From Desulfosporosinus youngiae DSM 17734 (lineage in GTDB: Bacteria > Bacillota > Desulfitobacteriia > Desulfitobacteriales > Desulfitobacteriaceae): 64,000 bases of DNA. The stretch covers positions 3,996,198 through 4,060,197 of the forward strand of contig NZ_CM001441.1 in assembly GCF_000244895.1 (NCBI RefSeq), in the 5' to 3' direction. The notes beneath the pieces were generated by a model. That model was given only the letters and a program-made list of their open reading frames with translations. It did not search any database and was not told the DNA's origin. A program made the position numbers and the translations under genes. Of the stretch, positions 533 through 39,954 are shown piece after piece. Every line of letters begins with the position of its first letter. Position 1 is the stretch's first letter.

Positions 533-2890
533 CTAAACTATGGTATGCTCAGTCCTGGCAATGATCTCCTCCTGCAAAGCCTCACTTAGGTCGCAGAAAT
601 AGTCGCTATACCCTGCCACCCGCACGATCAGGTCTCGATACTTTTCCGGTTCAGCCTGAGCAGCCCGCAAGGTTTTAGCACTAACCACGTTAAATTGAAT
701 ATGGTGCCCTCCCAATTTAAAATAGGAGCGGACCAATTGCGCTAATTTACCAAGCCCATCTTCTCCTTCGAGGACCTGAGGGGTGAATTTCAGATTTAAG
801 AGAGTCCCTCCAGTCCGGGCATGATCCAATTTGGCAGCGGATTTAATAACCGCCGTCGGGCCTCGAAGGTCCATACCCTGAACAGGAGAAATCCCTTCAG
901 AAAGCGGTTCCCAAGCCCTCCGTCCCTCTGCTGTCGCACCGATAACCGAACCAAAATAGACATGGCAGGTGGTAGGCAGCATATTGATTCTATAAACACC
1001 GCCCTTGGTATTGGGTCTGCCATTGACTTCATTATAATAGGCATTAAAAATATCTACCATAACTTCGTCAGCATAGTCATCATCATTTCCAAAGTGGGGG
1101 GTCTTGTTCATCAGAAGCTGCCGCAGGGATTCATGTGCCGAGAAATTATCGTCCAAGGCCCTAAGTAGTTGATCTAAGGTAAGATTCTTGTTGTCGTACA
1201 CATGATATTTTATGCCTGACAACATATCGGTCAGACTTCCCAGACCAACCCCCTGGACATAATTAGTGTTATAGCGGGCACCGCCGTCATTATAATCCTT
1301 GCCCTTAGCAATACAATCGTCAATCAGCAGAGAAAGAAACGGTGAAGGCATATACGTGGCATATAGCCGCTCAATAATATTGCTCCCTTTGACCTTGATA
1401 TCCATAAAGTAGTGGAGTTGCTGCTTAAAGGCTGTGAAAAGAGCATCGTATGACTCAAAACTCCGTGGATCTCCGGTTTCTAAGCCCAACTGCTGACCTG
1501 TCCTGGGATCAAACCCATTGTGCAAGACTAGTTCCAAGATCTTCGGCAGGTTAAAATACCCGGTCAAAATATAACTTTCCTTACCAAAGGCTCCCGTTTC
1601 CACACACCCGCTTGTCCCGCCCTGCCGGGCGTCCTCAATTGATTTACCTTGGCGCAGCAGTTCCTCGACGACGGTATCCGCATTGAAAACTGAGGGTTGC
1701 CCCCAGCCTTTACGGATAATCCTGGCCGCACGCTTTAAAAAACGATCCGGGTTTTTCTTGCTTAATTGGATGTTGGAGCTGGGCTGCAAGAGCCGCATTT
1801 CATCAATCACATCTAAAACTAAGTAAGTGACCTCATTAACACCATCTGAACCATCCGCTTTCAGCCCGCCGCTATTTATGTTAGCAAAATCCGTATAGGT
1901 CCCGCTTTCCTCTGCAGTTACCCCTACTTTGGGCGGTGCAGGCTGATTATTGAATTTTATCCAAAAACACTGCAGGAGCTCTTTAGCCTCTTCCTCAGTC
2001 AGGGTTCCCTCTGCCAGGCCCTTCTTATAGAAGGGATTCAGATGCTGATCCAGTCGTCCCGGATTAAAGGCGTCCCAAGTATTCAATTCCGTTATAACCC
2101 CTAAATGCACAAACCAGTACCCTTGCAGTGCTTCCCGGAAATTCCGCGGAGCATGGGCCGGAACATGTGAACAAACCTCGGCAATCCTCTCCAATTCAGC
2201 TTTACGCAGGGCATCCGTCTCCAACAGAGCCAATTCTCCGGCCTTTTCAGCGTGCCGTTCAGCAAAACGGATGATGGCTTCTGCACAGATCCGCATAGCT
2301 TTCAGTTCTTCCTGCTTGTAGTAGGCTTCCACATCATTCAAGTAATCCAGTTTTGCCAAATGCTGATCAATGTCGGCAATGAAATCCAGAAAACCCCGAC
2401 GATAGATTTTATCATCAAGTACGGTATGCCCAGGAGCTCTCTGCTCCATGAACTCTGTAAAAATGCCGGCATCATAGGCCCGTTTCCATTCCTCAGACAT
2501 CTCCGCAAACATCAGATCCCGCATAGAGTTGCCCTGCCAGCAAGGAATGATCCGCTCTTCGTAAGCCTGGCGAACTTCCGGGCTGACTTTAAAGGAGACT
2601 TTTTGACGTGAATCCAGAATGTCCAAATCCTCTAAACTATGACAGCAAAGCTCAGGGTAGGTATAAGTAGCTTTAGGCCCAGGTCCTCGTTCTCCGACAA
2701 TTAACTCGCCTTCATTAATACAAATATCCTTGTGTTCCAGTATATATTTAAAAGCTAGGGCCCGCTGAAGCGGAACGGATGTCTTCCCGGCCGAACGATA
2801 AAATTCCGTGATCAACTCTGCTCTTTCAGCAGAGATATATGCCTCAGCTTCTAGGCTTTGTTGCCTGAGCATAGCCACTCTTTCATTCAT
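533..2890 (-). CDS. hypD: trans-4-hydroxy-L-proline dehydratase (glycyl radical enzyme)
   Basis: This is a 785-residue glycyl radical enzyme of the PFL/diol-dehydratase superfamily. By family it removes water from trans-4-hydroxy-L-proline to give (S)-1-pyrroline-5-carboxylate in the cytoplasm. The thiyl-radical Cys lies in GGTSGCVETG (about Cys429), followed by the general-base Glu. The radical Gly lies in RVAGYSDYF near the C terminus (about Gly760). The N-terminal QRAPGHTV and central NNQPAPPKVG segments are those I recall for the Clostridioides HypD clade rather than PFL, choline lyase or glycerol dehydratase. The ATG is preceded by GATGAGGAGAG. A perfect TTGACA -35 (2951-2956, minus sense) lies upstream, although its -10 is poor, so the gene may have its own promoter. 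Its activase is next upstream, separated by repeat copy B. Substrate is assigned from motif similarity only. Confidence 0.9.
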   Translation of the reverse strand: MNERVAMLRQQSLEAEAYISAERAELITEFYRSAGKTSVPLQRALAFKYILEHKDICINEGELIVGERGPGPKATYTYPELCCHSLEDLDILDSRQKVSFKVSPEVRQAYEERIIPCWQGNSMRDLMFAEMSEEWKRAYDAGIFTEFMEQRAPGHTVLDDKIYRRGFLDFIADIDQHLAKLDYLNDVEAYYKQEELKAMRICAEAIIRFAERHAEKAGELALLETDALRKAELERIAEVCSHVPAHAPRNFREALQGYWFVHLGVITELNTWDAFNPGRLDQHLNPFYKKGLAEGTLTEEEAKELLQCFWIKFNNQPAPPKVGVTAEESGTYTDFANINSGGLKADGSDGVNEVTYLVLDVIDEMRLLQPSSNIQLSKKNPDRFLKRAARIIRKGWGQPSVFNADTVVEELLRQGKSIEDARQGGTSGCVETGAFGKESYILTGYFNLPKILELVLHNGFDPRTGQQLGLETGDPRSFESYDALFTAFKQQLHYFMDIKVKGSNIIERLYATYMPSPFLSLLIDDCIAKGKDYNDGGARYNTNYVQGVGLGSLTDMLSGIKYHVYDNKNLTLDQLLRALDDNFSAHESLRQLLMNKTPHFGNDDDYADEVMVDIFNAYYNEVNGRPNTKGGVYRINMLPTTCHVYFGSVIGATAEGRRAWEPLSEGISPVQGMDLRGPTAVIKSAAKLDHARTGGTLLNLKFTPQVLEGEDGLGKLAQLVRSYFKLGGHHIQFNVVSAKTLRAAQAEPEKYRDLIVRVAGYSDYFCDLSEALQEEIIARTEHTIV

Positions 2891-3009
2891 TTTAAGCTCT
2901 CCTCATCTTGTAAGCGTTCTAACTACCTTATTCCTATGTTTTCTTATACTTGTCAAGATAGGTACCTCTCCTTGTAACATTAAAGAGCTATCCTAAAAAC
3001 TTAAAGACC

Positions 3010-3254
3010 TCAAAGCCAGGCAGCTTCTCCCACAGGAGTGAACTCATCGCATGGAGAGGCGGTAAAAGCCCACAAACCGGTGCGGGGAAACGAAGCCACG
3101 GGTTCACATCAGGTATTACCCGGAGGTTTGGCGGAGTCCCGCGCCGGTGAGTGGGCGAGCCTCGGAGTGCTGAGTGAACGGATGTGGGAGAAACTGCCCG
3201 ACCCAAGGAACCTATTTTTAGCCTCTGATGGTGCTACGTAACAGCATGAGAGTC
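3010..3254 (+). repeat. Dispersed modular repeat, copy B (short form)
   Basis: This copy has the short layout: the gcatggagaggcggtaaaag core, then the gagtgggcgagcctcgga core, then a terminus reading catgagagtct. It lacks the hairpin and tandem-dyad modules of copies A and C. It fills the gap between hypE and hypD. Its terminus touches the end of hypE: the TAG stop (3254-3256) falls in the AGTCTA that also ends the terminus of copy F. It contains no believable gene. Confidence 0.85.
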
Positions 3255-4159
3255 TATCCCCCGATTTTTACCTTAAAGCCAAATTGCTCCAACTCTCCGG
3301 CAATTTCCTTCATTCGTTCATCGTCCGGAGGCTGTATATCCGGCAAGCAGTACTCAAGACCAAGCCGCCGGTACTTATCTGCCCCTGCCCGGTGGTAAGG
3401 CAAGCAATGAAGTTCAGTCACCCCTTTTAACTCCGCCGTAAATTCTCCTAATCGCTGAAGATTCTCCTCATCGTCATTGATCCCGGGAATAATCGCTAGG
3501 CGGACAATGACATGGGGATGGTTCTCGGCCAACCAACGCAGGTTGGTTAGAATAAGTTCATTAGGAACCCCAGTTACATCCTGGTGCTTCTTACTATCCA
3601 TAAGTTTCAAATCATAGAGAAAAAGATCCACGAATTCGCTGATTGTTTTCAAAGTGTCCAATTTGACAAAACCACAAGTTTCGACCGCTGTGTGGATTTC
3701 CTTTTTCCGGCACTGTTTGAGCACTTCTAAGAGAAAGTCTGGCTGCATCAAGGCTTCCCCGCCGGAAAATGTGGCTCCTCCGCCTGATTCATCATAGAAA
3801 ATCAAATCTTTCTCAATTTCTGCCATGACTTCATCCACGGACATTGACTTAGCAACAAGTTCCCTTACACCGGAGCAGCAAGTCTTGCAGCATTCCCCGC
3901 AGGCTTGGCATTGATCCCTTTGGTAAACCAGTTTCTCTTCAGAAAAAATCACTGCTCCGCTCGGGCAAACCTCAAGACACCGCCCGCAGCCGATACACTT
4001 ATCCGGTCGATACATTAATTCCTGAGCAAATTCCTGACCTTCAGGGTTGTGACACCACTGGCACTTGAGAGGACAGCCCTTGAAAAAGACGGTCGTACGA
4101 ATACCAGGTCCATCGTGAATAGAATACTTCATAATGTTAAAGATCCTGCCAGTCAGCAA
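3254..4159 (-). CDS. hypE: Glycyl-radical enzyme activase for HypD
   Basis: This 301-residue radical-SAM activating enzyme generates the glycyl radical on its partner using S-adenosylmethionine and a reduced [4Fe-4S] cluster. The SAM cluster motif CX3CX2C is visible as CPLKCQWC near residue 30, in the usual SIHDGPGIRTTVF context. It is followed by an inserted ferredoxin-like domain with two Cys-rich motifs (CIGCGRCLEVCP and CQACGECCKTCC, about residues 56-95). This layout is typical of activases for non-PFL glycyl radical enzymes. The chosen start is TTG at 4159, because AGGGTGGTGAG lies just upstream and the family usually begins with a short GRIFNI-type segment. The position beside hypD makes the pairing nearly certain. 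A dispersed repeat abuts its stop codon. Confidence 0.9.
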   Translation of the reverse strand: MLTGRIFNIMKYSIHDGPGIRTTVFFKGCPLKCQWCHNPEGQEFAQELMYRPDKCIGCGRCLEVCPSGAVIFSEEKLVYQRDQCQACGECCKTCCSGVRELVAKSMSVDEVMAEIEKDLIFYDESGGGATFSGGEALMQPDFLLEVLKQCRKKEIHTAVETCGFVKLDTLKTISEFVDLFLYDLKLMDSKKHQDVTGVPNELILTNLRWLAENHPHVIVRLAIIPGINDDEENLQRLGEFTAELKGVTELHCLPYHRAGADKYRRLGLEYCLPDIQPPDDERMKEIAGELEQFGFKVKIGG

Positions 4160-28833: not shown

Positions 28834-30501
28834 AGGGCTTGCTAACCGAATCCTTTTTATTCGTTCGATTACGCAAATACACCAATATCTGTAATTTGAA
28901 AATACCTCTTCAAAATTTGGACAAAAAGAACCCTGAGCTTATGCTCCAAGTTCATGACAAAGAATTGCATGCTAATCATGCACTCTGCTGTTTCTTTCAA
29001 TTTAGCATAAACACGATCAAGGCCATATTTCCTTTTACCCTCGCCAAACTTGCCTTCTACAGCATTACGCATCTTGGCATCCATCCGTTCAATGGCCTTC
29101 TCTACTTTTTTCAGGGCATCTCCTGAGGGCCTGCCTAGTTTGGGACCGCTGAGCCGGATGTTGTGGTTTTTGCAATACGCCAGATTTTTGCGGTTACGGT
29201 ATATCTTGTCGGCCAGCACCGCCTCAGGATAGCATCCATTACGGGCTCTGTAACGCTCTACGCTATCTATCAATGTTTCTGCTTCATTAAACGCGTCCCA
29301 AGACAATTTTTCGATGCGGCAGAATCCCTTCTCGATGCTTATGGCTACCTTAGCCCCGAATTCTACTTTGGCACTGGCTTTGCCGCGTACAATCGGTCGG
29401 ACATGATCCTGATAGAGGTTGACGATTCGATCCGGTATCTGATGTTGTTTTGTCTTATACATTGTTTCCTGCTGCTCAATTACGGTTCGAATGGTTTCCA
29501 ATAACTTGACTTGTCGGTTGCTTAAGGCTTCAAAGCCTGAGGGAATTTCTTTCAGCATTTGGTCAACGTGGCGAAGGTTTCTTTTACAATATTGCAATTG
29601 CTGCTTGATGCCTTTTCTAAGTTGCTTCTTTCTCGGACTCCGCTGTTTAGACACACTCAGATAAGCTTTTCTCGCTTTTTCACGGTAAGTTCTCGGCCGT
29701 TTGGTTGCTTTACCCTTCGCTTTATGAAGCGTATCAATGATCTCATCCAGTTTCTCGCGGGATTCGTTAAGCAGTCCGAGGTCTGTCGGATATTTTATAT
29801 CGGCCGGTGTGCAGGTGGCATCAAGGATCAACGTACCTTGATTCGGTTTGGATTCTTCTGAATCAGAGTCAGCAGGGGTTTTCTTCTCTTCCTTATCCGC
29901 ATCCGGAAGATTAGGTCCTTGTTGATCATCATCGTTCTTCTCGGCTTCCTTTTCTAGATGTTTTTGCCGCCCGCTCAGCTAAAGCAATGCGCTCGTTGAT
30001 TTTAGCCATGCGGTCTTTCTTAAAGCGCTTGCGAAATTTCACCAGGGCGACTGGAGTCAAAGGACGAGTCAATTGAAACTCCTTGAGGCCTATGAACCAT
30101 TGGAGATAAGGATTCTCCGTAATCTGCTGAACCGTTTCACGGTCAGTATAACCGCAGCGAGCTTGGATGATTAACGTACCGAGTGCCATGCGGACCGGTT
30201 TGGCCACATTGCCACGGTCACTCGGAAACATATGGGCGTATTCTTTTTCATACTCATCCCAAGGAATTATATTAGCTAATTGAACCCAACGATTTTCGGG
30301 ATCCAGTTTCCCCGAAAAAGGCAGGATGAAATCATCTATGGTTAGCTGGGGACTCGGTTTACGGTACATTTTCAACCTCCAAGTGCACGGTTTTTTTAAT
30401 CTAAATTCATATTTCCTTGCACTAAAGATTCGACGTAAATGCCCAAAAACCCTTGTTAAATCAGGTTTTTCCCTGGCGTTTAGCACTCGTTAGCAAGCCC
30501 T
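28834..30501 (-). mobile_element. IS5-like insertion sequence with intact ends and 4-bp target duplication
   Basis: The element is 1668 bp. Both ends begin AGGGCTTGCTAAC (13-bp perfect terminal inverted repeat) and are bracketed by AATT at 28830-28833 and 30502-30505. It carries one transposase gene of the DUF772/DDE type. It sits inside the sensor kinase gene. A clean target duplication means insertion was recent enough not to have decayed. Confidence 0.93.
28869..30369 (-). pseudogene. IS5/IS1182-like transposase, frameshifted
   Basis: The N-terminal part starts at ATG 30369 after GGAGGTTGAAA and contains the DUF772-type segment (MYRKPSPQLTIDDF, then ALGTLIIQARCGYTDRETVQQI). The C-terminal DDE part starts with LILDATCTPADI (first Asp). 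It continues through a second catalytic region containing VLADKIYRNRKN and ends with the C-terminal Glu-containing EGKFGEGKRKYGL. The two lie in different frames. The shift falls at an A5 run (29960-29964). Deleting one A would fuse them into about 500 residues. The required shift is +1, unlike the common -1 programmed slip, so it is more likely a mutation. Confidence 0.8.
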
Positions 30502-32740: not shown

Positions 32741-34111
32741 CTAGGATCTCTCATTCATCCTGACATATTTTCTTCTCGGTGCTACGTTTTTGTAAGCCGG
32801 TCTAATGATTTTTCCGGTATTGGCAATTTCCTCAATACGATGAGCACTCCACCCTACGATTCTGGATATTGCAAAAATCGGTGTAAACATTTCCATAGGA
32901 ATATTAAGCATTTTGTAGACAAAACCCGAGTAGAAATCCACATTAGCACTTACAGTCTTATACATTGTATTCCCTCTCGAAATAACTTCAGGTGCAATCT
33001 TCTCAACTTTAGTGTATAGTTTAAATTCATCTTCCAGTCCCTTTTCCTGAGCCAGCAGGGAAACGTAATGCTTGAGAATAACCGCTCTGGGATCAGATAT
33101 AGAATAAACTGCATGTCCGATTCCATAGATTAAGCCCGAGCGGTCAAATGCGTCTTTGGCGAGGATTTGGGTGAGATATTGCTCTATCGCTTCCTCATCT
33201 TCCCAATCTTTTATTTTACTCTTGATATCCTCAAACATTTGAACAACCTTTATATTCGCTCCGCCATGCCTCGGACCTTTAAGAGATCCGATTGCCGCGG
33301 CTATGGCAGAATAAGTATCTGTTCCGGTTGAGGTCACCACATGGGTGACAAAGGATGAATTATTTCCTCCGCCATGCTCAGCGTGAAGTACAAGGGCAAG
33401 ATCCAAGAGTCTTGCTTCAAGTTTTGTGTAATTGCTGTCCGGTCTCAACATAGCGAGAATATTCTCAGCAATACTTAGATCCGCCCGAGGGCTGTGAATA
33501 TAAAGACTCTGATTTCCATGATAATGACTGAAGGCTTGATAGCCATAGACAGCCAGGGACGGGAAGCAGGCGATCAGTCTGAGGCATTGTTTTAAAACAT
33601 TTTGCATTGAAGTATCATCTGGATTGTCGTCAAAAGAGTACAGCGCCAAAACGCTTCTGGCCAGCGTATTCATGATATCTTTGCTCGGAGCCTTTAAAAT
33701 CACGTCCCGGGCAAAATCTTCCGGTAACCTTTGATAAAGTGAGAGGAGAGCCTCAAATTCCTTTTGAGCCTTCTGATCCGGAAGATTTCCAAAGAGCAGC
33801 AGATATGCCGTCTCTTCAAATCCAAATCGTTCATCCTGGACAAAACCTTTTACGATATCCCGAATATCAATCCCCCGATAAATCAACCGTCCCGGGACCG
33901 ATACCTTCTCACCTTCATCCATAATGTAAGAATGGACCTCGCCTATTTCTGTCAGCCCAACAAGTACCCCTTTTCCGTCTAAATCACGCAAGCCGCGTTT
34001 GACTTCATATTTCCGGTATAATTCAGGCTTAATAAAACCACTTTCTTCAGCCATCCTGCTCAACATACTTAACATCGTCTCTTCAGATTTATCAAGATTA
34101 AAATAATTCAT
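32741..34111 (-). CDS. Citrate synthase
   Basis: 456 residues. Catalytic His are in HAEHGGGNNSSF and GIGHAVYSISDPRA, and the catalytic Asp in VSANVDFYSG, the standard si-citrate synthase set. The protein is longer than the approximately 370-residue short bacterial form, with an N-terminal extension of about 60 residues before the VGLTEIGEVHSY segment. AAAGGAAGAG precedes the ATG. It condenses oxaloacetate and acetyl-CoA, feeding glutamate synthesis. It is monocistronic with its own terminator. Confidence 0.92.
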   Translation of the reverse strand: MNYFNLDKSEETMLSMLSRMAEESGFIKPELYRKYEVKRGLRDLDGKGVLVGLTEIGEVHSYIMDEGEKVSVPGRLIYRGIDIRDIVKGFVQDERFGFEETAYLLLFGNLPDQKAQKEFEALLSLYQRLPEDFARDVILKAPSKDIMNTLARSVLALYSFDDNPDDTSMQNVLKQCLRLIACFPSLAVYGYQAFSHYHGNQSLYIHSPRADLSIAENILAMLRPDSNYTKLEARLLDLALVLHAEHGGGNNSSFVTHVVTSTGTDTYSAIAAAIGSLKGPRHGGANIKVVQMFEDIKSKIKDWEDEEAIEQYLTQILAKDAFDRSGLIYGIGHAVYSISDPRAVILKHYVSLLAQEKGLEDEFKLYTKVEKIAPEVISRGNTMYKTVSANVDFYSGFVYKMLNIPMEMFTPIFAISRIVGWSAHRIEEIANTGKIIRPAYKNVAPRRKYVRMNERS

Positions 34112-34268: not shown

Positions 34269-34847
34269 ATGTCTTGGAACATTAAAAAATGGAATTGGTC
34301 AGGAACCCTGGTCACAATGTCAACCGCGATCTTTGCGTTGGTATCCCTTATTTCTGTATACATCTCGATCACTACCTGGCAAATACAGCGCGAAGCAGCA
34401 CGCCCATACTTTACGTTTTTGGAATCTCCATCTATCCGGCTTACCGGGAGTTTAAGTTATGAATTCGAATTCAAATTCAAAAACGTAGGAACCCATCCGG
34501 CTACAAATCTGTTCAGCAGAACCTTGGTTTTTGAGCAGCAATTACTGCAAACGCCAATTCTGATCGATGACTACACTGTAGTTAATGATATTCCCAGGGA
34601 TACTACAACCAGTTTGCTCCTTAATCTTAATGACCCGGACTTAGTAGAAAAAACTAATATCAATCCGCATTTTGTTATCATTTGCTTAAGATATGCTGAT
34701 CCAATCGTCCATAAATCCTATACCCAAACAATTTATCTTAAATGGGCCGGAGTCATAGCAGGAAGCAAACAACCCTTAATCCACGTCGAAATGAGTGAGA
34801 AAGAAGCCATTTTAAACTACTTAGAAACTCATCATTTACTTGAATAA
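34269..34847 (+). CDS. Uncharacterised membrane-anchored protein (192 aa)
   Basis: I recognise no family. One N-terminal membrane helix (about residues 11-33, ending VYISITTW) is followed by QIQREAARPYFTF and a predicted soluble beta-rich domain of about 150 residues. This layout recurs in small proteins that display a beta-sandwich on one side of the membrane. GGGGGC precedes the ATG. It converges on the riboswitch at 34963-35108, whose terminator lies about 35 bases beyond its stop. Confidence 0.65.
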   Translation: MSWNIKKWNWSGTLVTMSTAIFALVSLISVYISITTWQIQREAARPYFTFLESPSIRLTGSLSYEFEFKFKNVGTHPATNLFSRTLVFEQQLLQTPILIDDYTVVNDIPRDTTTSLLLNLNDPDLVEKTNINPHFVIICLRYADPIVHKSYTQTIYLKWAGVIAGSKQPLIHVEMSEKEAILNYLETHHLLE

Positions 34848-34880
34848 CATTGAAAATCACCTTCCGGCCAAATAATAAAA

Positions 34881-34902
34881 AACCCGTCCAAAGGTCCGGG
34901 TT
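34881..34902 (-). terminator. Terminator of the riboswitch leader
   Basis: AACCCG/CGGGTT arms with an inner partly paired loop, followed on the minus strand by TTTTATTATT. It lies about 60 bases after the aptamer, as expected for an expression platform. Confidence 0.75.
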
Positions 34903-34962
34903 CCAGCCATAGAGGTAAGCCTGGGAACTGCAAAGCAAAGCAGGCTGCGCATGCATGCTCTT

Positions 34963-35108
34963 TTCGTTCCTCTCTTGCAACGCTTACGAAGTTAGCTGAC
35001 GGATTCGGGTTGAAGAGTAACCCTACCCTCACTAAATTATCGACAATTATGTGAAGGATTCACCCCGGAAAATGGTTTCCCCGCTTCTAGATTAGAATTA
35101 AGCGATAG
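34963..35108 (-). ncRNA. Cyclic-di-AMP (ydaO/yuaA-type) riboswitch aptamer
   Basis: On the minus strand the conserved blocks occur in order: ATCGCTTAAT near the 5' end, GAAGCGGGGAAACCA, CGGGGTGAATCC, GGGTAGGGTTACTC, ACCCGAATCCGTCAGCTAAC, TTCGTAAGCG, and AGAGAGGAACG at the 3' end. These are the blocks I recall for ydaO aptamers, which turn transcription off on binding c-di-AMP. A promoter lies directly upstream and a terminator downstream. No minus-strand gene follows: the next 600 bases encode a gene on the opposite strand. Confidence 0.9.
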
Positions 35109-35149
35109 AGAACATTATTTAGTTTATGGAACTACTAACAATAACTAGA

Positions 35150-35179
35150 ATTGTATCATAGTTTAATTCGAATGGTCAA
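35150..35179 (-). promoter_or_regulatory. Sigma-A promoter of the riboswitch
   Basis: Minus-strand TTGACC (35174-35179), an 18-base spacer and TACAAT (35150-35155), about 40 bases before the aptamer. The RNA therefore need not depend on read-through from the upstream gene. Confidence 0.65.
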
Positions 35180-35237: not shown

Positions 35238-36209
35238 TTACCCTATTCCAAAAGAAGCTCGTAAAAGATCCGTATGTAAGGCTCCGGCATGAAACGTTCG
35301 CCCACTGTTCAAGTTGCATAACCATACCTCGGCAGGGCTAAAAATCAGGGGGTCTATATCATAAAAATTCCCATAGTCCTTGTAGATATCCTTAAAAAGC
35401 CGCCCATATTCCTTAGAAGAGCAGGACGGAACCTGCTTTACAAGCGCATCTAAGATTTGATCATCATCTCTGAGATTATAAAGTACTGTTGATCCATAAA
35501 GAATCCCATCGTTCGAGCGTCCTAAGGCGCTGAGCTGGTCACAGGCTGCAGGAGGGAGCGGACAAATTCCCCAGCCGGAAACGACTCTTTCCAGATCATA
35601 CCCCAGTTCTTTAAGTTTAGATAACCCTGTTTCCAAAGCCCGTGCGGCTATCTGAATGGAACCCACCTGAGAAGCAGTAGGCGCTGCCAAAATATAAAGA
35701 TTCTCAGGATTACATCCAAATTCCCCCAATAGATGCCGAACTACCTCTTCTGACGGTAGTTCCGCGCTTTCTAAACATAGAATAGCCGTCTCAGAATAAT
35801 CCTCATAGCTTGAGTTTTCATACAGGCCACCTTTATGAATAATGGCACGTCCCGGACCGGATCCCATAGCAAGCAACCCGCCATTTTTGATAGGCCAGCC
35901 TGCATATTGTGACGCCATACAAGCCCGTATTGGATGATCCGTAACAACTTCTACCGCCGGCCAGCGTAACCCATCAAAATTTGACCATTGAAGGTTTACT
36001 TGAGCCAGTCCGCCCAGGCATACTGCTGCAAATAAAACTCCGGCCTCCCAGCTCCCTTGAACCCGGACACCGCAGTCAATAACTGTTGCCTCATTGTATT
36101 TGAGAACGTTGACTCTCAGAAGCTCGCTCCTTAAGATCAATTCCTTAACTAAGGGAAAGGCCTGACGGTTTGGGCTCAGTATGGATTGTTCGGTAAACGG
36201 AAAAACCAT
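35238..36209 (-). CDS. mch: Methenyltetrahydromethanopterin cyclohydrolase homologue
   Basis: 323 residues matching Mch along its length. Blocks seen include TVIDCGV, LFAAVCLGGLAQV, VTDHPIRACMASQYAGW, MGSGPGRA (usual MGSGPARA), VGSIQIAARALETG, GRSNDGILYGSTV and FYDIDPLIFSPAEV. Mch interconverts methenyl- and formyl-tetrahydromethanopterin in methanogens and methylotrophs. Firmicutes of this type normally use tetrahydrofolate and FolD, so the role here is uncertain and may be on a different pterin. AAGGAAGAAGC precedes the ATG. No other H4MPT gene occurs in the window. The neighbours are signalling genes. Confidence 0.88.
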   Translation of the reverse strand: MVFPFTEQSILSPNRQAFPLVKELILRSELLRVNVLKYNEATVIDCGVRVQGSWEAGVLFAAVCLGGLAQVNLQWSNFDGLRWPAVEVVTDHPIRACMASQYAGWPIKNGGLLAMGSGPGRAIIHKGGLYENSSYEDYSETAILCLESAELPSEEVVRHLLGEFGCNPENLYILAAPTASQVGSIQIAARALETGLSKLKELGYDLERVVSGWGICPLPPAACDQLSALGRSNDGILYGSTVLYNLRDDDQILDALVKQVPSCSSKEYGRLFKDIYKDYGNFYDIDPLIFSPAEVWLCNLNSGRTFHAGALHTDLLRASFGIG

Positions 36210-38734: not shown

Positions 38735-39954
38735 TTATGCTATTTGTTCTTGAACACTTACTACTAAACCCAGTGACTCCAATTTTTTGATCGAATTTTT
38801 AATCAAACTATCTTTTTTACGTTCATCAAAATAATTGTAGCCTAGATCCACATATTCTTGTTTTCGCGTTAACAAGATATGTACAAGAGACAAGATTGTA
38901 TGTCCTACAGCTATCGAAGCCTTATTTTTTCCACGTCGGGCTGCTATCCGATGATATTGTGCCGATAAGTAGTTATTTTTTTTACGAGCAGCCGCTTTTG
39001 CTGCCTCGGTAAGGGCGCTTCGAAGCTTCTTATTTCCTTTACGCGTCTTTGTGGACTTTTTTTTCCTGCGCTTTCATCATGACCTGGAGTCATCCCTGCC
39101 CACGAACATAAGTGTCCGGGTGTAGGAAATCGTGACATATCTGTACCAACTTCAGCAATAATTTGTTCAGCAGTTCTTTTTCCAACTCCGGGTATAGAAT
39201 CCAATAACTTCAGTTCTTCCGCAAAAGGGGTCATACGTTTCTCAATTTCTTCGTCCAATTTACTAATTAGTTCATTGAGGTAATCGATATGAGCTAATTG
39301 CTTCTCAAGCATGAATAATTGATGGGCTCCAAGTAATCCTTCTAGCGCAAGTTTCAAATCTTCCTTTTTATCCTTTAGTTTCTTTAGAGCAAAATCCGCT
39401 AAAACAGAAGTGTCTTCCTCTCCTTTAATCATAGCTTCCAACATGTTTCGCCCAGATACACCCAACACATTTGAAGCCACAGAGGATAGTTTTATGTTCC
39501 CCCCCTCTAATACTTTCTGTAGGCGATTCACTTCTCGCGTTCTTTCTTCAACGATGCTTCGCCGATATCGAACGACCTCTTTTAATTCTCTTTGATCCCG
39601 GTTCGGAATAAAACTTCCTTGGACCAAACCATGACGCAGTAAACGTGCAATCCACTCGGCATCTTTAACATCCGTCTTTCGTCCCGGCACAGTTTTAATA
39701 TGCTGGGCATTAACTACCATCGGTTGTAGATCCTCTGTCTCTAAGAGGTTATAGATCGGTTTCCAGTAATCACCTGTACTCTCCATCGCGACATGGGAGC
39801 ATCGGTTGTCTTTTACCCAATCAACTAGTTCGATTAGGTTTCGAGTCATTGTTGAAAATGTATGAATCTCCTTTCCTTTGGGGGTAATGATGCAGGCTGT
39901 AATACTTTTTTTATGCACATCCAGTCCGCAACATCGTTCATGCAATACTTCCAT
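38735..39954 (-). pseudogene. IS110 recombinase, frameshifted near the C terminus
   Basis: The N-terminal DEDD domain begins CGLDVHKKSITACI and includes AMESTGDYWKP, KTDVKDAEWIARLL and a coiled segment. The C-terminal Tnp_20 domain has LDSIPGVGKRTAEQIIAEVG and CSWAGMTPGHDESAGKK, with the conserved Ser. The frame breaks at an A8 run (39057-39064). With nine A it would continue as KKKSTKTRKGNKKLRSAL and on to a stop at 38735-38737, giving about 406 residues, the normal length. An A AAA AAG-type slip of -1 would also restore it, so a programmed shift is possible though not usual for IS110. Confidence 0.85.

Follow-up and report, generated by a model that had tools for sequence, protein, structure and literature searches.

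What does a riboswitch control when no gene follows it? The question arises at a locus of Desulfosporosinus youngiae DSM 17734 within a 64,000-nucleotide stretch of DNA, here called the window, for which an original prediction described an orphan c-di-AMP riboswitch on the minus strand with a sigma-A promoter and a terminator but no gene. All three elements are confirmed. A search of the window with cmscan (Rfam 15) returns a single family, RF00379 (c-di-AMP), whose match spans the entire model (positions 1-134 of 134) with 96.7 bits (E = 1.2e-21) against a gathering cut-off of 38 bits. The covariance model thus accepts the aptamer, which is far above chance and lies where it had been placed. 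The leader promoter agrees with the consensus at 10 of 12 positions and scores 14.1 with a simple sigma-A matrix (95% shuffle value, 10.6). The terminator, AACCCGGACCTTTGGACGGGTTTTTT, was missed by a simple scanner; its stem has an internal mismatch. In the platform, ATGGCTGG is complementary to the aptamer core TCAGCTAA, giving an alternative pairing. A gene for diadenylate cyclase, the c-di-AMP synthase, is present in the same genome, and we predict that the leader binds c-di-AMP and that the ligand affects its termination. Coordinates are collected in Table 1.

Table 1. Features of the riboswitch locus, in window positions
Feature	Position	Strand	Remarks
Methenyltetrahydromethanopterin cyclohydrolase (MCH), upstream neighbor	35238..36209	-	TIGR03120
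Sigma-A type extended -10 promoter of leader	35150..35179	-	TTGACC-18-TACAAT, TG before -10
c-di-AMP (ydaO/yuaA) riboswitch aptamer, RF00379	34965..35114	-	96.7 bits; helices kept in orthologues
Expression platform	34903..34964	-	Includes ATGGCTGG directly before terminator
Intrinsic terminator	34877..34902	-	AACCCGGACC-TTTG-GACGGGTTTTTT; hairpin -11.7 kcal/mol, then six T
ORF192, 192-aa protein, opposing gene between riboswitch and CitS	34269..34847	+	Hydrophobic N-terminal stretch (by eye)
Citrate synthase (CitS, gene citS)	32741..34111	-	PF00285; NF010635

The gene adjoining the leader does lie on the opposite strand, as originally reported. It is ORF192, which has no Pfam or NCBIfam match and whose stop codon is located 30 nt beyond the leader terminator, so that the gene is convergent with the riboswitch. 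The layout is therefore not that of an ordinary cis-acting leader, with a same-strand gene directly downstream, but that of an antisense riboswitch, with a convergent gene directly past the terminator. The description "no gene" holds for this adjacent position and fails beyond it: the next gene on the riboswitch strand is that of citrate synthase, which starts 765 nt beyond the terminator and about 850 nt beyond the aptamer. Open frames on the riboswitch strand between the terminator and CitS are not common to the eight species that have this arrangement (see below) and do not indicate a hidden small gene. Two frames that overlap the leader (34753-34980 and 34832-35032) were also rejected as genes, having no match to a Pfam family. 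ORF192 has a paralogue of 43% identity near the start of the chromosome record (L114:5325-5948), and the two represent a family that is widespread in the bacterial family. The window also contains an IS110-type transposase near the locus (38944-39954) and a second transposase with a DDE domain (28869-30486), apparently split over two frames.

Comparison with relatives, which had been suggested as a way to find the missing gene, identifies citrate synthase as the partner. Ten other Desulfosporosinus genomes have an RF00379 match about 100-130 nt before their citS orthologue and oriented like that gene. In a tree of 101 unique aptamers collected from the genus, the window aptamer groups with the citS-adjacent aptamers, separately from its own genome's NlpC/P60 and glutamate-aminomutase copies (SH-aLRT 95); the supported set has 23 rows, comprising all 18 citS-type aptamers and five divergent ones. 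The platform motifs GCTTTGCTTTGC and TTRGCTG, the latter beside the terminator, are common to the displaced and the citS-adjacent leaders. Because of the aptamer grouping, the shared platform motifs, and the citS-adjacent orthologues in ten genomes, we identify the window riboswitch as a citS leader. It is better called displaced than orphan, and we propose citrate synthase as both its ancestral and its present target. The association was found in this genus: among genomes of other genera of the bacterial family that have CitS, none has the riboswitch next to it, and more distant CitS loci gave only one RF00379-like match, which points away from CitS (L283).

The same orthology bears on whether the leader is a free small RNA that binds c-di-AMP, as a sponge or trans regulator, with the terminated leader as its product. 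Such an RNA would have its own promoter and terminator and no adjacent gene, as this one does. Its relatives, however, are ordinary citS leaders, a kinship for which a free RNA offers no explanation; conservation is poor in the platform that links aptamer to terminator (identity 0.56), and no trans target is visible. We regard a free small RNA as extremely unlikely.

The displaced order, in which MCH and the riboswitch on one strand are followed by the opposed ORF192 and then by CitS on the riboswitch strand, occurs in eight species: the window species, UBA8487, D. lacus, D. nitroreducens, SRJS8, HMP52, G007, and D. hippei. In the CitS tree, a branch with support 100/99 sets these eight apart together with three further genomes (G011, G024, and G029); ORF192 has an orthologue at the equivalent place across the clade. 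Of the 101 unique aptamers collected, the eight displaced ones alone lack a neighboring gene on their own strand. Six others that seemed gene-less (L032, L221, L226, L233, L238, and L239) were set aside, since they precede NlpC/P60 genes whose starts had been missed by ORF calling, one of them decayed. In L239 (G013:C28:123250-126100), a c-di-AMP aptamer is followed by a frame-broken NlpC/P60 gene. Elsewhere in the genus, no ORF192 orthologue has a riboswitch opposite it. In G029, a sister species, ORF192 borders CitS and there is no riboswitch. Beyond the clade, G015 carries ORF192 next to a fragment of MCH, with no riboswitch or CitS there, so that more than one gene order may be the ancestral one.

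Across the eight species, the leader is much better conserved than its surroundings. Mean pairwise identity reaches 0.85 for the aptamer, 0.72 for the promoter, and 0.70 for the terminator, compared with 0.35 in the flank before the promoter, 0.27 from the terminator to ORF192, and 0.39 from ORF192 to CitS. In the 18 orthologous leaders, 98.9% of cells in the aptamer helices are paired. Most of these pairs are invariant; double changes are seen at two pairs of helix 6, and the covariation score is 0.083 (0.067 when shuffled). A terminator is found at the equivalent place in all eight displaced leaders, with energies from -8.4 to -13.4 kcal/mol. The promoter is likewise kept in all eight species and exceeds the 95% shuffle value in seven; in the eighth leader (L094) it lies so near the MCH stop codon that the scan cut it off, and it is visible in the alignment.

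These values weigh against the earlier suggestion that the element is a remnant left after loss of the gene it controlled. The partner is now identified, is still the next gene on the same strand, and is preceded by an element under constraint. A related possibility is that leader function was lost once ORF192 came between, leaving the riboswitch to decay. The aptamer is indeed gone from two of the 10 clade members that have the locus (G011 and G024), and displaced aptamers score 82-102 bits, below the 102-110 bits of adjacent copies, which suggests some relaxation. Against decay, promoter, aptamer helices, and terminator have been kept in eight species while the flanks drifted to identities of 0.27-0.39, and the promoter was spared in both losses. 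We consider such a remnant highly unlikely.

The two losses are informative in their own right. In both G011 (TTGACG-18-TACAAT) and G024 (TTGACT-18-TAAAAT), the promoter persists and can be aligned with those of the other species. G011 has also kept the terminator, whereas G024 retains the hairpin and has lost the T-run (U-tract). Because both aptamer losses spare the promoter, transcription toward ORF192 and CitS appears to be the most strictly kept part of the arrangement, on the strength of two cases only, which may be recent. The loss in G011 is clean, with promoter and terminator hairpin now adjoining (L101:6560-6700), and amounts to a natural riboswitch deletion. In G024, a long palindrome, GGGTGAAACTC...GAGTTTCACCC, lies between the aptamer-less promoter and ORF192 with no T-run after it (L102:560-605).

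Can a transcript from this promoter reach citS? On the way there along the riboswitch strand, no second strong intrinsic terminator is seen in any of the eight species. A search of 30 Desulfosporosinus genomes found no Rho gene; the cut-off is 509 bits, whereas top scores are 54-63 bits in most of the genomes and below that range in a few, and the highest match in the window genome is a FliI-type flagellar ATPase. In Bacillus subtilis, Rho suppresses mostly antisense transcription (PMC9931155). Without Rho, an untranslated antisense RNA of such length would escape this factor, which takes away an obvious obstacle. The gap between ORF192 and CitS contains no sigma-A-like promoter above the 95% shuffle level. 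The missing citS promoter is weak evidence, because G029 needs one in the absence of the riboswitch and yet the scan finds none there either. Together, the absence of a second terminator, of Rho, and of a clear citS promoter lends indirect support to a predicted single transcript across ORF192 into citS. A point against this prediction is the distance of about 770 nt, untranslated and transcribed in the opposing direction as well, that the polymerase would have to cover.

We also looked at how the terminator might be controlled. The aptamer core TCAGCTAA pairs with the TTRGCTG motif beside the terminator over 7 or 8 nt in all eight displaced leaders, compared with about 20% of shuffles that reach 7 nt. 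The citS-adjacent leaders already have this pairing, from which the displaced ones inherited it, and by itself it leaves the terminator intact in most minimum-energy folds. A classical antiterminator, in which aptamer GGTAGGGTT would pair with the 5' terminator arm, was rejected, since the complementarity is barely above that of shuffles (four leaders).

Perhaps the strongest competitor for these observations is that citS gained a promoter of its own and that the leader now acts solely on ORF192, through antisense RNA or colliding polymerases, like the B12 riboswitch on pocR in Listeria. ORF192 is the first thing that read-through would meet, it is always convergent, and G029 must express CitS without the leader. 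Antisense-acting riboswitches are also known: a 2023 survey counts 27 ydaO-yuaA cases (PMC9943018). On the other hand, no citS-proximal promoter rises above shuffles, the leader is orthologous to citS leaders, and ORF192 orthologues elsewhere in the genus face no riboswitch. We judge an action on ORF192 alone to be rather unlikely. The original prediction had proposed an antisense regulator whose read-through opposes this gene; the anatomy fits and is common to eight species, and the antisense effect itself we infer.

The reading that we prefer, with a probability of roughly 60%, is that the riboswitch controls citS through read-through of about 770 nt that is also antisense to ORF192, forming a noncontiguous operon (excludon). 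The dedicated sigma-A promoter would transcribe the leader. With c-di-AMP bound, termination at 34877 would be favored and only a short leader RNA made, by analogy with characterized members of the class; in B. thuringiensis, ligand binding to a c-di-AMP riboswitch increases termination (PMC6488665). When c-di-AMP is low, polymerase would pass the terminator, transcribe antisense over the whole of ORF192, and continue into citS. A single signal would thus raise citrate synthase and lower ORF192. The aptamer, the promoter, the terminator, the kinship with citS leaders, and the conserved gene order are established by the sequence comparisons, whereas the ligand response, the read-through to citS, and the antisense effect on ORF192 are all predicted steps. 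A further and more tentative proposal, to which we would give slightly less than even odds, is that this one terminator decision moves the two genes oppositely, with citS read in sense and ORF192 in antisense, that the arrangement arose when a gene intervened, and that it has been selected in eight Rho-less species.

Each part of this model has a known counterpart. The kdpFABC riboswitch of Bacillus thuringiensis (PMC6488665) is alike in aptamer fold and sequence, has its own promoter, and has a terminator a few dozen nucleotides past the aptamer. The window leader differs in that the next same-strand gene lies about 850 nt past the aptamer, behind an opposing gene, and in that its proposed target is citrate synthase. 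In the B12 riboswitch/aspocR system of Listeria and the S-box/ubiG-mccBA system of Clostridium acetobutylicum, reviewed in PMC7154746 and PMC9943018, the riboswitch also adjoins the 3' end of a gene convergent with it, to which read-through would be antisense; unlike these, the window has a same-strand gene, the target in relatives, beyond the opposed one. The menE-menC-MW1733-ytkD-MW1731 operon of Staphylococcus aureus (PMC7154746) is a single unit with an opposing gene midway and reciprocal regulation expected, as proposed for the window unit. The latter would be headed by a riboswitch leader rather than by protein genes, with c-di-AMP-dependent termination as the modeled gate. We propose that the locus joins two known architectures, riboswitch-controlled antisense RNA and the noncontiguous operon. 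It may be among the 27 ydaO-yuaA cases counted in the survey (PMC9943018), as a plain antisense case.

The other c-di-AMP riboswitches of the genus give the physiological setting. The window genome (5.66 Mb, single contig) has four c-di-AMP aptamers. Of the remaining three, each directly before a gene, one is followed by glutamate 2,3-aminomutase and two by NlpC/P60 wall hydrolases. In the first of these (L116; G000:C1:486000-492500), the enzyme is encoded at 2061-3473 on the minus strand (TIGR04368, 694 bits), and this family is found downstream of 12 aptamers in the genus. Glutamate 2,3-aminomutase is an osmolyte (beta-glutamate) enzyme. Across the genus, genes found after other c-di-AMP aptamers encode a KUP potassium transporter and a family-20 glycosyltransferase (trehalose-phosphate synthase type), as well as wall hydrolases and glutamate 2,3-aminomutase. 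As a supplier of 2-oxoglutarate, glutamate, and further precursors of osmolytes, citrate synthase fits this osmotic gene set. In the library searched, we found no paper that joins the terms "c-di-AMP riboswitch" and "citrate synthase". The enzyme and c-di-AMP are already known to interact, by a route other than this one, since in Listeria mutations in citZ, which encodes citrate synthase, suppress c-di-AMP loss (PMC8549634).

The apparent orphan is in effect a natural experiment, a termination switch against which a gene has come to lie. Riboswitches described as orphan or antisense are thus worth checking for a displaced sense target before they are labeled antisense regulators. In these bacteria, citrate synthase would join the glutamate 2,3-aminomutase of the same genome as a likely direct member of the c-di-AMP regulon, and the messenger would thereby be linked at the RNA level to the supply of glutamate-type osmolytes.
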